From: Serendipita indica DSM 11827
Lineage: Eukaryota; Basidiomycota; Agaricomycetes; Sebacinales; Serendipitaceae
Direction of reading: 5' to 3'
DNA: 64,000 bases
Assembly (NCBI GenBank): GCA_910890315.1
Contig: CAJVGD010000042.1
Coordinates: 1,116,001-1,180,000, forward strand
In this document: piece by piece, positions 8,701-47,876 of the stretch
Position numbering within the stretch: the stretch's first letter is position 1
Layout of the letters: the number at the start of each line of letters is the position of its first letter
Made by a program: the position numbers and the translations under genes
Notes under the pieces: model-generated
The model's input: the letters and a program-made list of their open reading frames with translations, nothing else
Database searches by the model: none
Told to the model about the DNA's origin: nothing

Positions 8701-9737
8701 CGACCTTTGGATCACGAACGAGTTTGACGAGGTTGTCAATGACCACGACCGTTCGTCTCTGAACCTCCATACTCCTATCGTTTAATGCGCGAGTGAGAAG
8801 CGGCACAAGAACTGCTAGCGCTGGTGCCGTAACTTCTGCGACAAACGTGGTGTTACTGAGTGCCTTGATGCAAGCTGCGACGGTCTGTGGATCGGCCATG
8901 CATTTAACCAGCGCAGGAACGTGTGGAAGAAGATCTGGATTGGGTAATGTGGCACAAAGTGCGGTGCCACACTTGATAGCAGCGGAAGACACCTCTGCCT
9001 TGGTATCATGCATGGCCAATTCGATATGAGGAAGGGTCGTGCCTAGCTCCTCGCCCACTTGTTCTTTATTCTGATTGGCAAGTGTCTTGATCGCGTCTAG
9101 GACACCAACTTTGGACTTCCATTGTTTGGTCTGTTTGAGCGAAACTTCTAGGTTGCGGAGAACAGGGCTCAGTGCCTCTGGAGGAAAGATCTTGAGGATT
9201 GCTTTGACAGCCGCTGTTGCGGCCTCGCGCACAACGTCTCCCTTATCCATGTAGAGATCGAAGAGAGTTGGCAAAGAGGGAATGAGTAATGGGCCGACTG
9301 GTGTTCCAAGGATCGTAGCGAGGGACTGGAAGCCCATTGCCCCGGATTCACGCTCGTATCCGGACTTTTTGTTCATACAGAACGCTTGAAGGGTTTGTAG
9401 GATTTTTGCATCCCTGTGCACACGTTGGTCAGTTTTTCTCCAGATAAAGAAGGGAGATTGCATCGAGCATGATTAAAAAGACGGGAAAGAGACTTTACAG
9501 TGAAGTCTATTGCAGATGGCCGCGAGAATGTCTCATGCCACAGGCACTTTGCCCGAGGACGATAACTGGCACAGGGGAACAATGCAAGGTCACTCACTCA
9601 AGTAAAGTATATCCGAGCGTCTTTACCTCTTGTGCAAGTGCATTTGCGGCGCTTTTTGCATCAGGCGCGGTGGGTGCTGTTCGCAAGGCCTCTAAAAGTG
9701 GCGGGATGGTCGTCGTACTTGGGACTAGATTAGACAT
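5711..9737 (-). CDS. tef3: Translation elongation factor 3 (eEF3, ABC-F ATPase)
   Basis: Fungus-specific ribosomal ATPase that frees deacyl-tRNA from the E site and helps eEF1A delivery. Domains in order: HEAT repeats (about 8500-9413), a helical linker, ABC1 with Walker [13 protein letters not shown] (about 8090-8125) and Walker [11 protein letters not shown] (about 7685-7710), ABC2 with Walker A GPNGAGKST split by an intron (about 7150-7210), a chromodomain inserted in ABC2 (about 6500-6620), signature SGGQKVKVV with VVLDEPT (about 6275-6355), and a lysine-rich tail ([10 protein letters not shown]) ending in acidic DTDSD. The start [10 protein letters not shown] (9735-9737) is joined to the HEAT region by a 184-nt first intron (9414-9597), much longer than the 45-60 nt introns elsewhere. 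Full length by domain content. It shares a 446-bp intergenic region with the dioxygenase gene at 10184. Confidence 0.95.
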
Positions 9738-10183: not shown

Positions 10184-11386
10184 ATGTGCGAAGCCCTCCC
10201 AACGACTCGTCCGCAGTGGCTGCAGGCATTGCGCGACCTGCCCGCCACACCAAACAAAATTCCCGCCTTCTTCTTTGCTCATGGTTCGCCAATGCTCGCT
10301 TGGCCAACGGCAATCGCGCCTCGAGCAGGAGCCTTTGCCAGTGTCCATAAACAGATGGGTCCTGAGGGACCTTTGGCTCAATTCCTACATGATTTTGGAC
10401 CCGCCCTCATTGAGAAGTACAATCCAAGAGCTATTGTCGTCTTCTCGGCTCACTGGGAAAGTCCTCGCAATCAAATACTAGGCAAGAACGCCAGCTATTG
10501 TCGGCTGAGATTTACTTCTAACAGTTATACATCAGTCACAGATTACGGAGAACAGAATCCTCTTTTATTTGACTACTACGGTTTTCCAGAAGAGGTATGC
10601 AACTTCTCCTGTGTAACTGGAGGGATTTATAATCTATCAGCTCTATGATCTCAAATTTGAATCCAAAGGAGATAGCAGCGTGACAGGAGAAGTCCTTGCT
10701 GCATTACAAAAGGTAAGCTCTACCTATTCAGACTTTATTGGTACTCACTCGTCCCAGGCAGGAATACCATCGCGTGCGACACCAGTGACTGAAGCTCGCG
10801 GAGCTGACGGACGTGGGTTTGATGGACCGGGACTCGACCACGGAGTTTTCGTGCCCTTTGGGATCATGTTCGGCGAGAAACTCCAAATTCCGCTGGTACA
10901 AGTCTCCATCGACGGAACGCTTGACCCAGCCAGGGAATGGGCCTTGGGTAAGGCTATCGCGTCATTACGGTAAGAGTGTTTGCGTCCCAGACTAGACAAA
11001 GGCTAACTCGAATCAAATAGCTCGCAGCAGATTCTTGTACTTTCTGGTGGTCTCACCTACCACAATCTCCGCAGTATGACTGCATTCGTCGAGGGCGCAG
11101 CCAATTCAGCTCAGAAAGAATTTCATCAAGCAATTTTGACCGCCTTACAAATCGAAGATGTGAGTCTTGATTACATATTTAAAAAAACAACGCCTAACCC
11201 GTTCGTCAGCTTGAGAAGCGGCAAAAGGCCATGTACGACCTCACAAGGCATCCTGGATTCCGACCGAGCCACCCAAGAGAAGACCATTTCGTTCCTCTCT
11301 ACGTAGCCGCTGGAGCAGGTGAAGAAGGGGATGTTAAAATCCTCTCTGCTACGTATGGAACAATCACGGCAGCTTTCGGTGTATAG
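10184..11386 (+). CDS. DODA-type (LigB-like) extradiol aromatic ring-opening dioxygenase
   Basis: Class III extradiol dioxygenase, related to plant 4,5-DOPA dioxygenase and to bacterial LigB/YgiD; the family opens catechol rings with a metal held by His and Glu. Motifs in order: IPAFFFAHGSP with the first metal His, AIVVFSAHWES with the second His, NPLLFDYYGFP, GLDHGVFVPFGIMF, ILVLSGGLTYHNL, and REDHFVPLYVAAGAG near the end. Four small introns (about 10594-10639, 10712-10757, 10971-11020 and 11160-11209) restore the frame. The first ATG is at 10184 (MCEALPTTRPQW). The substrate cannot be told from sequence: L-DOPA or another catechol is possible. No pigment or catechol genes sit nearby. Confidence 0.85.
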
Positions 11387-18594: not shown

Positions 18595-20074
18595 TCAGAG
18601 ACGGTCTATACAACAGTTAGCCGCGTGTTAAAAGAGTCTATAACCACTACTTACTGACGTTGCCCAGGTCAGTGCAGGCCTCCTTGACACGTTCGCTGAG
18701 CGTCTTCTCACCCTCACGCACCCAAACGCGAGGATCATAGTACTTTAGACAATCGATGTCAGCTACCATCACCAGGCATCTATGCAACACACTTTCTTGT
18801 TCGGCTTATCCGCTCCCTCAGGATTGCCAACCTGGGACTCGAGGTAGCCAGCCTTCTTCTTGAAGTAGTCCTACAGACCCGTCAGAAAATGGTCATACTA
18901 CTTCTTTGGACATACCCTCATGCCGATCAAGTATGCGAATTGGGTGTCAGTATCGACGTTCATCTTAACAACACCATTCTGGACAGCGGTAGCAATTTCC
19001 TCTTTGGTTGACCCGGAACCACCGTGGAAAACGAGGAACCTAATGAATGTGGTCAACAACTAGAGGTTGCAAATGTCACGAACACATACAATGGCTTCTC
19101 CTTGCCGGTCTTCTGGCCGACATGGGCTTGATGGTTAGCCAAGATTTGGGGTTGAAGCTTGACGTTTCCTGGCTTATAGACACCATGGACGTTACCAAAC
19201 GCCGCTGCAATCGAAAAGTTTGGAGAAATCTTGACGAGCGCATCGTACACCTCGAAGATATCCTCTGGTTGTGTGTACAAGCTTGCATTGTCGACACCGG
19301 TGTTGTCAACGCCATCCTCCTCGCCACCCGTAATGCCAATTTCCATCTCAAGCCAGAGATTAAGCGGAGCCATCTTCTTGAGATACTCGGCACAAATGGC
19401 AATGTTTTCCTCCTTGGGTTCCTCGCTAAGGTCGAGCATGTGGCTACTGAACAACGGCACGCCGTGCTCCTTGAAATGAGCCGTATCCGCCTCGAGCATG
19501 CCGTCGAACCACGGCAGGAGCTTCTTTGCGCAGTGGTCCGAATGCATGACAACTGGGATACCGTAGGATTTTGCGACGGTGTGCACATGCTTTGCCGCGG
19601 CGATGGCGCCTGTAATCGAGGCCTCCTGGTTCCCGTTCGGAAGCCCTTTTCCGGCATAGTAGGCGGACCCGCCCTGAGAGCATTGAATGATGATGGGTGA
19701 CTTGATATCACGGGCAGCCTCTAGAACTGCATTGGCAGTCGACGAGGAGGTGACGTTCTACATAGGTAAGCAAAAGCTATAATTTCGAAACACCCTACTC
19801 ACAACTGCCTGTAAAACGTGGAACGGTCAATGGGAGGATTCGACATGGAGTGTAATCAAACATACCGGAATAGCAAACTACGAGGTGGGGTCATCAGATA
19901 ACCGCATTAATGAAACAAAAGCAATCCATACCTTGTGTTCTCGTGCATATTCGAAGAGCTTCCTGGTCTGATCGCCTGTGAGGACGCCAGCCTAGATACA
20001 AGCAAATCATGATCAGCGAAGGCAGGCCCCAAACGGACCATCCAACATACTGGAACAATGTCGAGAACACCCAT
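18595..20074 (-). CDS. fba1: Fructose-bisphosphate aldolase, class II
   Basis: Zinc-dependent glycolytic enzyme that splits fructose 1,6-bisphosphate into two triose phosphates. Start MGVLDIVPAGVLTGDQ (20072-20074). Visible: the metal-site motif VVMHSDHCAKK, LEMEIGITGGEEDGVDN, AAAFGNVHGVY, FHGGSGSTKEE, and KMNVDTDTQFAY; the end is LGNVNRL (stop 18595-18597) after an intron at the 3' side. The gene is intron-rich. In the N-terminal region two consecutive tiny exons, 12 nt (19866-19877, FAIP) and 6 nt (19803-19808, AV), are needed to give HKFAIPAVNVTSSS. Their flanking sites are good (GTATGT and GTGAGT donors). No residue of the active site is missing. Confidence 0.95.
19803..19877 (-). other. 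Tandem 12-nt and 6-nt microexons of aldolase
   Basis: Exon TTTGCTATTCCG (19866-19877) and exon GCAGTT (19803-19808), each with an AG acceptor before and a GT donor after, separated by a 57-nt intron. Joined, they keep the aldolase frame and supply the conserved Phe-Ala-Ile-Pro-Ala-Val. Confidence 0.8.
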
Positions 20075-44720: not shown

Positions 44721-47700
44721 TCATTGCGGTCGACGGCCAATGTCCCCATGAACGTCCAACAGAATCTTGAGTGCGTTTCGGCTTCGAATGTTTGCCAAAT
44801 CTTCGTCACCAGAAATTGCTCGAGTTAGCGCAGTATCGATCTTCTTGGGTTGCTCAGCCCATGGATACTAAACGGGGGATCAGTAAGTTGCGTAGAAAGT
44901 AGCAAATTCACGTACCGGGAAAGACTATATGCGAGGATGGATGGTCAGTATACGCAGTGTTCAAGAGAGGAGAACTTACGCTTTGCAATGTCTCAAATGC
45001 AAGAAGGGTGCCGGCGAATTGAGGACTGGACTCGCTTAGATTCATGGACTAAGGAAGCAAGATGGACGTACCTGGACCGGATCACTCGAGCAGGACCACC
45101 CTTGTATAGAGCCCTGAAGCCCTCTTCTCTGAAAATCTTCTTAAAGGCGTCTACAATTCCCTTGTAGTTGGTTTCGCCCTTTCTTGCTTCGACTTGCAGG
45201 CGAGTCTTGACGACATCTACAAGATAATCAGAGCTGGCGAATGATTGAGACAATACATACCGGCAGGGGTCGTAAGATACGCGGCAGGCATGCCGCTAAA
45301 GGCGGTGAGTGCGAGAAGACGTACAGCTCAGAACCTACGCGATACCAGCAGCCGCGAGGGTTTCGCCGAATGAGAGCTTTTTGTTATTGTGTCCCTCATG
45401 GAAGACGTCCTTTTTAAGATGTGCGTATGCAGTGAAATAAATCTACGGCCAATTAGCCTCGTCCCATGCTCGACGAGTAAAACTCACAGCCGAGAATGGA
45501 ATGTCACTATTGTCGAATGTAAGCATGGCGATCGGGCACCTAATGTGAATCGTACCGGAGCAAACATGCCGAGGCTCCCTTGTAGAGGCCAAGGAGACCG
45601 AGCTCTTTGATGATGTGACCTGCACCTCGCTTGACACCACCAAGCTCTCCTTGAACCTGTAATCGAATCTTGCTGGGTTGCGAATCAGGGCCCCGATCTA
45701 ATCTCGCGCTTGATGTACGTACACAATTTCCAAGGGATTGGTAAAGATCTTGAGAATTCTTTCAGTTACCATGTCCTATACAAGGAACAAAATACTGACC
45801 ACTTGGCAGCCACCAGCAGTACCTCCGGCCACTATCTCCCATCCAAGTTTGATTCTACCTGTCTCCGGGTCGGATGTTCTCGAACGAACAAAGTCGTTGA
45901 CCGTCAGCTTGATGGCCTTTTCCGGAGCTACACCCTACACAGGTTTGGTGTCTTGGTCTTATCAAAGTAAGGTTACGCACGACTAGCTGAGGCCCGAGAC
46001 CTCTGTAAAAGCCCAGAAGACCTTCGTTTCGGAAGACTTTTCGTACACAGTCGAGACTGTTTTTGTACAGCAATTGACCGACGACTGTGGAGCGCTGGTT
46101 TTGCATCCTAAGATGAAAGGTGAGAACTAGGTAATACTTCCAAGTTATACTGACCTTGTCTATAAATCGCAAGATTTTAGACACATAAGTATGAGATAAC
46201 TGAATTTACGATACCTTGACTGAAGGGAAATGAGCCATATGGTTTGTATATGCAATTTACGCACCTAAATCGATTGGGTACACGATGGTGGCACCGAATG
46301 CGCCAGCAATACCGCCTATTCACGGTGTATTAGCTCACGAATACGCAAAAATGCACCAGTATCTCACCGAGGCAGAAGTTGAACATTGACTCCCCGACTG
46401 TCTCCAAAATCGACTTTGCCGTTGTCGCGGGCTTCTGGATTTCCATCGGCGGCTGCCATCGAGGGTCGAGAAGCTGGGCAAAGTCAAGGAGTGCAAGCCT
46501 TTGTCGACCGTCACCCCTTCCAGCAAAGTGGAAGATAATGGAAGCTTCCATGGGGCTGAAGAGACCATATCGTGTTGCCCGTGCGCTGTAATTCAGAAAG
46601 TCATCCTGCGCTGTGGAAAGATAAGGGCCCACATTTACGCTAAAGAATACTACTTACAAATTCGACCGTCCTTGGATTTGGCCGTTGCTTCTCGAATTAC
46701 ACTTGACGTGTGTCAGAGAGAAAGCAGGAATTGCAACCCTCCTACCGCTCGACCATGTCCATACCTACGCGGGATCAGCGGTTGTGTTGCATCCGAGAAA
46801 GCTGCAGCTTACTCTTGATAACATTATGGAATGCGACGACCTCAGCGTATGAAATCTTGCCTCCTGGCGAGAGGGCACAAAGAGTTGGTAAACGTTCGAG
46901 AACTGAGTCTGATAATTTATGTCCTTCCAGCTCCTGAAAAAAATGTGAGCGAAAGCTGATTGGCGGGGTATGTACGCACGAGAATGATGCGTTTGAATTG
47001 GTCGGGAGTGATGAAGCCGTCCTGGTTCGAATCGAGATATTTGAATGCTTGTCGGAGGCGCTCGTCTTGCAGTCCTTTCATTAATTGCGTAAATTCGTTG
47101 TCTAAACATTGCTCGGGAATGAGCAGGCGCGATGTCACATTGATCACGTCTACTCACAGCCGAGGACGTGCGTCCCATCGCGCTTTCCCAGGTGAAGCTT
47201 GACCCAGTCGCTTGAATAATGTGATAAGCAAAAACGACCCTAGTCGGATGTCCGTCCCGTCTCACCAGTCGAAATTGAAAGGAAGAGCGTCGGCTCCCAG
47301 AGTGGCAGCGAAAACGTTCTTGAATTCATTAAGGTCGATACTTCCGGAGCCATCTCTGCAAATTCGGTGAGATTGGACGAATGCGGAAGCTCCGAGGATG
47401 ATGCATACACGTCGAAAAACTTGAATGCAATAAGATAATCTGCGTCGGGGCGTTTGAGCAGAGTCTGGAAGACGACAAAGTCGTCCCAGGAGACCATTCC
47501 ACGCTTTGACTGGTCAGCAACTGTGAAGAGGACGCCGTACTGGGCCTCTTCAATCTTGTGTCCGTCACCAGAGGCCGGGACAATAGCCTTGACAAATGCT
47601 TCCCGATTCAAGTATCTGGTTAAAAAACAGCCCGTGAGCATGCACCGCGAAAATGGTCTGCTGGCATAAGCGGGCGACTCACCGCTCGCCGTTGACTTCG

Positions 47701-47876
47701 ACGGCATTCGAGTCGAAAATGCGTCTCCATCGACGTCCTTCACTCTCTGGTCCTGCTACAGTCTTCTTCACAGACGACAGAGCCGCAGTGGCCGTCGACG
47801 CCGCGTCTCCCAGCGTCGGGCCAGCCGTCAAGACGACATAGTCGTCTGCCTGGCTCTCTCCCGCATTTTTACTCAT
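44721..47876 (-). CDS. agc1: Mitochondrial aspartate/glutamate carrier with EF-hands (AGC1/aralar-like)
   Basis: Inner-membrane carrier that swaps matrix aspartate for cytosolic glutamate, as part of the malate-aspartate shuttle. Start [12 protein letters not shown]. The N-terminal half has EF-hand-like loops ([28 protein letters not shown]) and a linker. The C-terminal half has three carrier repeats: signatures YPIDLVKTRMQ, NPLEIVKIRLQ and [11 protein letters not shown], and [23 protein letters not shown]. The first signature is split by introns around two 5-nt exons (46215-46219 and 46155-46159). The second is split at the same Val/Lys point. The end is [11 protein letters not shown] (stop 44721-44723). 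It looks complete, with EF-hand sites canonical enough to bind calcium. Confidence 0.92.
46155..46219 (-). other. Two tandem 5-nt microexons of the carrier gene
   Basis: Exons TCAAG (46215-46219) and ACAAG (46155-46159). Intron 1 is 46220-46264 (45 nt), intron 2 46160-46214 (55 nt), intron 3 46108-46154 (47 nt), all GT-AG. Joined they give Leu-Val-Lys-Thr-Arg-Met-Gln in frame, which is the invariant carrier signature. Confidence 0.8.

Follow-up and report, generated by a model that had tools for sequence, protein, structure and literature searches.

A probable pair of adjacent 5-nt exons in the first signature motif of a mitochondrial aspartate/glutamate carrier gene of Serendipita indica

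A gene in the stretch of Serendipita indica DNA analysed here (64,000 nucleotides, hereafter the window) is assigned by sequence to a calcium-regulated mitochondrial aspartate/glutamate carrier. Within the signature motif of its first carrier repeat, this gene very probably contains two successive exons of only 5 nt each, TCAAG and ACAAG. The structure is of a recognised kind, and automatic annotation easily errs on it.

The carrier gene and its two 5-nt exons

The aralar/citrin-like carrier gene (44721–47876, minus strand) consists of 23 exons, and removal of its 22 GT-AG introns, all of them 43–67 nt long, gives a single open frame of 687 residues. The predicted protein contains three Mito_carr stretches (Pfam PF00153, 243.5 bits), and several EF-hand models of Pfam match it as well; its N-terminal domain is aralar/citrin-like. 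The best PDB matches of residues 33–330 are 4p5x (Aralar1, 4.5e-45) and 4p5w (a chain containing Aralar2, 3.7e-39), after which the next relatives include UCP1 and the ADP/ATP carrier. The three Mito_carr stretches, the EF-hands and the similarity to aralar uphold the carrier identity proposed in the preliminary description.

The mitochondrial carrier signature reads P-x-[DE]-x-x-[KR]-x-[RK]. Its Lys and Arg are found in repeat 2 (PLEIVKIR) and repeat 3 (PADVVKTR) of this protein as well as in repeat 1. Introns cluster at the signatures of all three repeats (45216–46315, minus strand): VKTR in repeat 1 contains three of them, and PLEIVKIR and PADVVKTR contain one each, in the Val codon and the Asp codon respectively. 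The junction in repeat 1 is laid out as follows.

46265–46315, minus strand: exon 10, 51 nt, ending in ...PIDL and the first base of the Val codon
46220–46264, minus strand: intron 10, 45 nt, GTGCGT...CAG
46215–46219, minus strand: exon 11, the 5-nt microexon TCAAG, which finishes the Val codon and encodes Lys
46160–46214, minus strand: intron 11, 55 nt, with the weak donor GTATCG
46210–46214, minus strand: competing 5-nt exon GTATC, giving GITR with acceptor and donor 5 nt downstream, or VKVS as the last five bases of a 10-nt exon
46155–46159, minus strand: exon 12, the 5-nt microexon ACAAG, which encodes Thr and the first two bases of the Arg codon
46108–46154, minus strand: intron 12, 47 nt, GTCAGT...TAG
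45981–46107, minus strand: exon 13, 127 nt, opening with the third base of the Arg codon, followed by MQNQR

Both 5-nt exons are internal with GT-AG introns on either side, which places them in the microexon size class (1–15 nt). Exons 10 to 13 join as GAT TTA G/TC AAG/ACA AG/G ATG (slashes mark exon borders), which reads D L V K T R M, with Q as the next residue. After splicing, the signature of repeat 1 is intact, PIDLVKTR followed by MQNQR, only when TCAAG and ACAAG are used together. The positions, lengths, sequences and GT-AG borders given earlier for the three introns (45, 55 and 47 nt) and the two 5-mers are all confirmed, and so is the claim that frame and motif need both 5-mers, by the VKTR parse and by the truncation that follows from either skip.

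The paths from exon 10 to exon 13 were enumerated with one to three GT-AG introns of 35–90 nt each, which yielded 886 parses. Only two of these give an open in-frame product with the signature, taken here as the pattern P-x-[DE]-x-x-[KR]-x-[RKQ]: the parse described above, and one in which both the donor that follows ACAAG and the acceptor of exon 13 are replaced by sites farther downstream, at the cost of MQNQ. The parse with TCAAG and ACAAG is thus the only one of the 886 that combines the motif with an intact MQNQR. As a null model, the 157 nt between the flanking exons were shuffled 20,000 times with their dinucleotides preserved and their first six and last three bases fixed. A rescue by 10 nt through one or two microexons was possible in 3,829 of these shuffles; one or two microexons gave a signature-like tetrapeptide ([VI][KR][TSAVICQ][RKQ]) in 22, and exactly VKTR in a single one.

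The length of the junction is also marked by an ortholog. Viral contigs and genome contigs were each scanned twice; the viral contigs contained no match to the carrier, the first scan of the genome contigs returned none either, and the second returned two loci, L001 and L002. L002 was rejected as an ortholog: its sequence (4,001 of its 12,105 bases were read) looks bacterial or phage-derived, and the match seems fortuitous. L001, a distant relative, is therefore the sole ortholog found across the viral and genome contig scans. Its gene has EF-hands, carrier repeats and GT-AG introns, and its joined partial product is 54% identical to the window carrier over 622 positions, with 23 gap positions that all lie elsewhere than at the junction. 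The junction is VYPIDLVKTRMQNQRS in both proteins and aligns ungapped. L001 carries PIDLVKTRMQNQR uninterrupted inside one exon, and exactly 10 nt separate the bases that match the flanking exons 10 and 13. The two genes share the intron after ...CQV and before IFTNP. The 687-residue reading and the gapless match to an uninterrupted ortholog bear out the earlier view that motif and frame agree and that the gene is not broken here.

The ortholog (L001:1-7953, NYXK01000071.1) lies on a 315-kb contig filed under a public Deltaproteobacteria metagenome-assembled genome, and its intron-containing carrier gene looks fungal. This genome therefore seems to include eukaryotic sequence, and L001 is apparently a fungal contaminant in it. 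A carrier search of the same genome gave six matches, three of them at the known gene on the L001 contig and the rest weaker, and yielded no further carrier ortholog there; an aldolase search of it gave one weak match (L003, 31% identity).

Splice sites at the junction and the possible products

The splice scores of introns 10 and 12 fall within the range of the other introns in the gene. The donor of intron 11, AAG/GTATCG, has the lowest score of all 22 donors (leave-one-out score −5.72; the next lowest is −0.21). Its position +5 is C, as against G in all 19 introns outside the junction. A sample of 78 introns predicted in the window (from gene models with a coding score of 40 or more, each flanking exon being 50 nt or longer) is skewed in favour of G; in it, position +5 is G in 65 and C in 2. 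Five nucleotides downstream of GTATCG lies another donor, ATC/GTAAAT, which scores 1.8 against −7.0. On the acceptor side, CAGTCAAG/ provides a second AG located 5 nt past the better-scoring CAG (5.5 versus 7.4). The preliminary description does not mention the low score of the intron 11 donor, and it missed the competing donor and acceptor 5 nt on, which give other in-frame readings.

Three combinations of these sites are in frame and give a full-length product of 687 residues: TCAAG with ACAAG (VKTR), GTATC with ACAAG (GITR), and TCAAGGTATC alone (VKVS). By summed splice scores GITR (25.4) ranks above VKVS (19.1) and VKTR (18.5). A basic gene finder was set up with introns 10–12 excluded from its splice matrices and with the CDS of the carrier gene included in its coding model; it put two 5-nt exons at the junction and chose the register of GTATC with ACAAG.

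The ranking by protein evidence is different. The Mito_carr model scores repeat 1 at 91.0 bits with VKTR, 86.3 with VKVS and 79.4 with GITR, while an artificial control missing three residues scores 71.3 bits. Whole-protein BLAST against L001 makes little difference between the three (650 bits for VKTR, 645 for VKVS and 644 for GITR). We retain VKTR because the Mito_carr scores, the ortholog and repeats 2 and 3 favour it over the ranking by splice scores. TCAAG with ACAAG is thus highly likely to be the predicted main product of the junction, and GITR and VKVS are possibly errors or minor forms.

In the best explanation, the gene would be a working, intron-dense one in which three short introns within ten coding bases of the repeat 1 signature leave two constitutive 5-nt exons. 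All three introns are short, with lengths typical of this gene, which makes intron definition the natural model. Each of them would probably be recognised as a unit, and they would be removed one after another, so that once one is gone the microexon would be absorbed into a longer exon. Under intron definition, tandem microexons need just this sequential removal and not exon definition. A study in S. pombe is said to address intron definition. The preliminary description called 5-nt exons very hard to define. This presupposes exon definition, and with introns of about 45–55 nt pairing across the intron is likelier. For TCAAG and ACAAG we infer intron definition, the order of removal and constitutive inclusion alike. 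The weak donor of intron 11 and its competitors 5 nt downstream would probably lead to some mis-splicing, part of it frameshifted.

The predicted product ends at 451 residues when exon 11 is skipped, likewise at 451 when exon 12 is skipped, at 422 when both are, and at 383–387 when any one of the three introns is retained. Skipping either exon therefore shifts the frame, as had been proposed. Because skipping and retention truncate the protein, mis-splicing is costly and regulation is conceivable. Regulated inclusion, in which unproductive splicing would set the amount of carrier, could coexist with the best explanation given above. These truncations would fit it, as would the weak donor with competitors close by and the behaviour of TCAAGGTATC when joined to ACAAG: this parse, which keeps all three pieces, is out of frame and ends at 427 residues, and its single-site scores sum to 27.3, above those of GITR and VKTR. 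Out-of-frame splicing errors act alike in any gene, however, and we regard this putative regulation as unlikely.

A functional slide of the register by 5 nt is less likely again. Here GTATCG, as a weak donor, and its competitors 5 nt downstream would together produce VKTR, GITR and VKVS, all of 687 residues, alongside truncating transcripts. If true, it would let the cell tune the amount of carrier, or even gate residues, through tandem microexons.

The gene could instead use the shifted register throughout, with GTATC (46214–46210) as exon 11 between acceptor CAGTCAAG/ and donor GTAAAT, then ACAAG, and with PIDLGITRMQNQR as the protein. Among the parses with PIDL and MQNQR both in frame, this one has the highest splice score (25.4 versus 18.5 for VKTR); it is also the choice of the gene finder and yields a full-length product of 687 residues. 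It needs the second AG, 5 nt past a better-scoring CAG, and it removes the signature Lys, which costs repeat 1 its fall from 91.0 to 79.4 bits, while the ortholog has VKTR and repeats 2 and 3 of the carrier itself retain the Lys. We consider it very improbable that this register replaces the one with TCAAG.

A single microexon would suffice if TCAAGGTATC were spliced as a 10-nt exon followed by one intron of 102 nt, with ACAAG left as intronic sequence and PIDLVKVSMQNQR as the protein. The donor is the better-scoring one, the total lies just above that of VKTR (19.1 versus 18.5), and the product is in frame and full length. But the intron would be longer than all 22 introns of the gene (43–67 nt), the ordinary acceptor and donor that flank ACAAG would be bypassed, and the signature Arg would be lost (86.3 versus 91.0 bits); Thr-Arg is present in L001. 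This parse seems still less credible than the shifted register. A pseudogene or assembly error that leaves the 157 nt without working exons, for which the one weak donor and the reliance on a single sequence might speak, is least credible of all, since the remaining joints yield a 687-residue protein with conserved domains and the right residues can be recovered from exactly 10 nt, a result seen once in 20,000 shuffles.

Origin of the introns and relation to known microexons

The nucleotides preceding the donor (positions −2 and −1) are AG in all three introns of the junction and in 1 of the 19 elsewhere in the carrier gene (Fisher p = 0.0026), which suggests proto-splice sites or extra pairing with U1. 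The contrast is weaker than it appears, because 18 of the 78 predicted introns of the window have AG there. A tandem intron duplication as the source of the pair was also considered and rejected: although CGTAAATT occurs in both intron 10 and intron 11, their alignment score is reached in 12% of 2,000 shuffles.

Adjacent microexons of 5 and 12 nt have been described in the rice transcript Os08t0562700-01, where RT-PCR confirmed them (PMC8831610), and in a Zygnema peptidase M1 gene, where RNA-seq did (PMC11096116). As presented in the relevant passages of these reports, both cases resemble the carrier pair in having two neighbouring tiny coding exons, which annotation there misses wholly or partly; such pairs are fused in other algae. 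They differ in that the genes come from plants and algae and belong to other families, whereas the exons of the carrier pair are both 5 nt long and known from genomic sequence.

A fungal example is the 1-nt exon of Fusarium CYP621A, inferred by length-marker logic and confirmed by reads (PMC12940212). Like the carrier pair, it is an ultra-small fungal exon in a conserved motif, deduced from the frame and an uninterrupted relative. According to the passages on this gene, it is a single exon backed by 20 orthologs and RNA reads, while the carrier has a pair and one uninterrupted relative. P450 genes of the white-rot fungus Phanerochaete chrysosporium combine short introns with very small exons, the shortest of 6 bp (PMC1184071); in the part of that report that deals with them, the microexons encode 2–10 residues and a tandem 5-nt pair is not mentioned. 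In Trichoderma virens Xlr2, another fungal gene in which inclusion of a microexon decides which protein is made, glucose-dependent inclusion has been reported (PMC11121469, in the passage on this exon), whereas regulation of the carrier pair is only putative. Passing references, one in each of the passages concerned, are made to "tandem micro-exons" in plant AP2/ERF and MADS genes (PMC7714060) and to a "5-nt exon" among Drosophila microexons (PMC8042270). A tandem pair of 5-nt exons in a mitochondrial carrier was not found in the open-licence literature as covered by titles, abstract openings and passages. The carrier pair joins these known microexon cases, and it is unusual in that both exons are 5 nt long and that the first has a 5-nt register ambiguity.

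For gene finders and read mappers, two consecutive 5-nt exons that sit in an essential motif and whose lengths are not multiples of three make a demanding test case. The pair also offers a small natural system in which to test intron-defined splicing, and the nearby sites shifted by 5 nt make it a good place for measuring splicing accuracy.

Other microexons in the window

Tandem microexons occur in two genes of the 64-kb window, the carrier gene and a class II fructose-bisphosphate aldolase gene whose exons are those of the gene-finder model.

20074–18595, minus strand: class II fructose-bisphosphate aldolase gene, gene-finder model
19877–19866, minus strand: 12-nt exon encoding FAIP, adjacent to the 6-nt exon
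19808–19803, minus strand: 6-nt exon encoding AV, adjacent to the 12-nt exon

The aldolase pair (19803–19877) is located at the conserved N-terminus, and both of its lengths are divisible by three. The predicted product aligns with the Candida albicans enzyme (7yva) without gaps across the two exons. Together with the 5+12-nt pairs in the passages on rice and Zygnema (PMC8831610, PMC11096116), the 12+6-nt pair weakens the initial impression that two microexons in a row are rare. The carrier and aldolase pairs suggest that further exons of this sort exist in the genome and would be missed by standard annotation.

A window-wide count of microexons was dropped, as several small predicted exons (e.g. 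9542–9546, 9483–9492 and 42915) had no support. The gene finder is too crude for a wider count: its iterated version merged genes and produced exons of zero length, and a second version extended the carrier gene into predicted exons as far as 49385. Searches of the window for tRNAs and Rfam families found no tRNA and no family at or above its gathering score. The gene finder also proposes a 9-nt exon at 11028–11036 on the plus strand, in a model that spans 10184–11386.

The carrier gene itself contains further small exons, including two of 19 nt and one of 9 nt near its end.

44916–44924, minus strand: exon 22 of the carrier gene, a 9-nt microexon in phase 0 that encodes SFP

Exon 22 aligns with L001 without a gap, so its length agrees with that of the ortholog.
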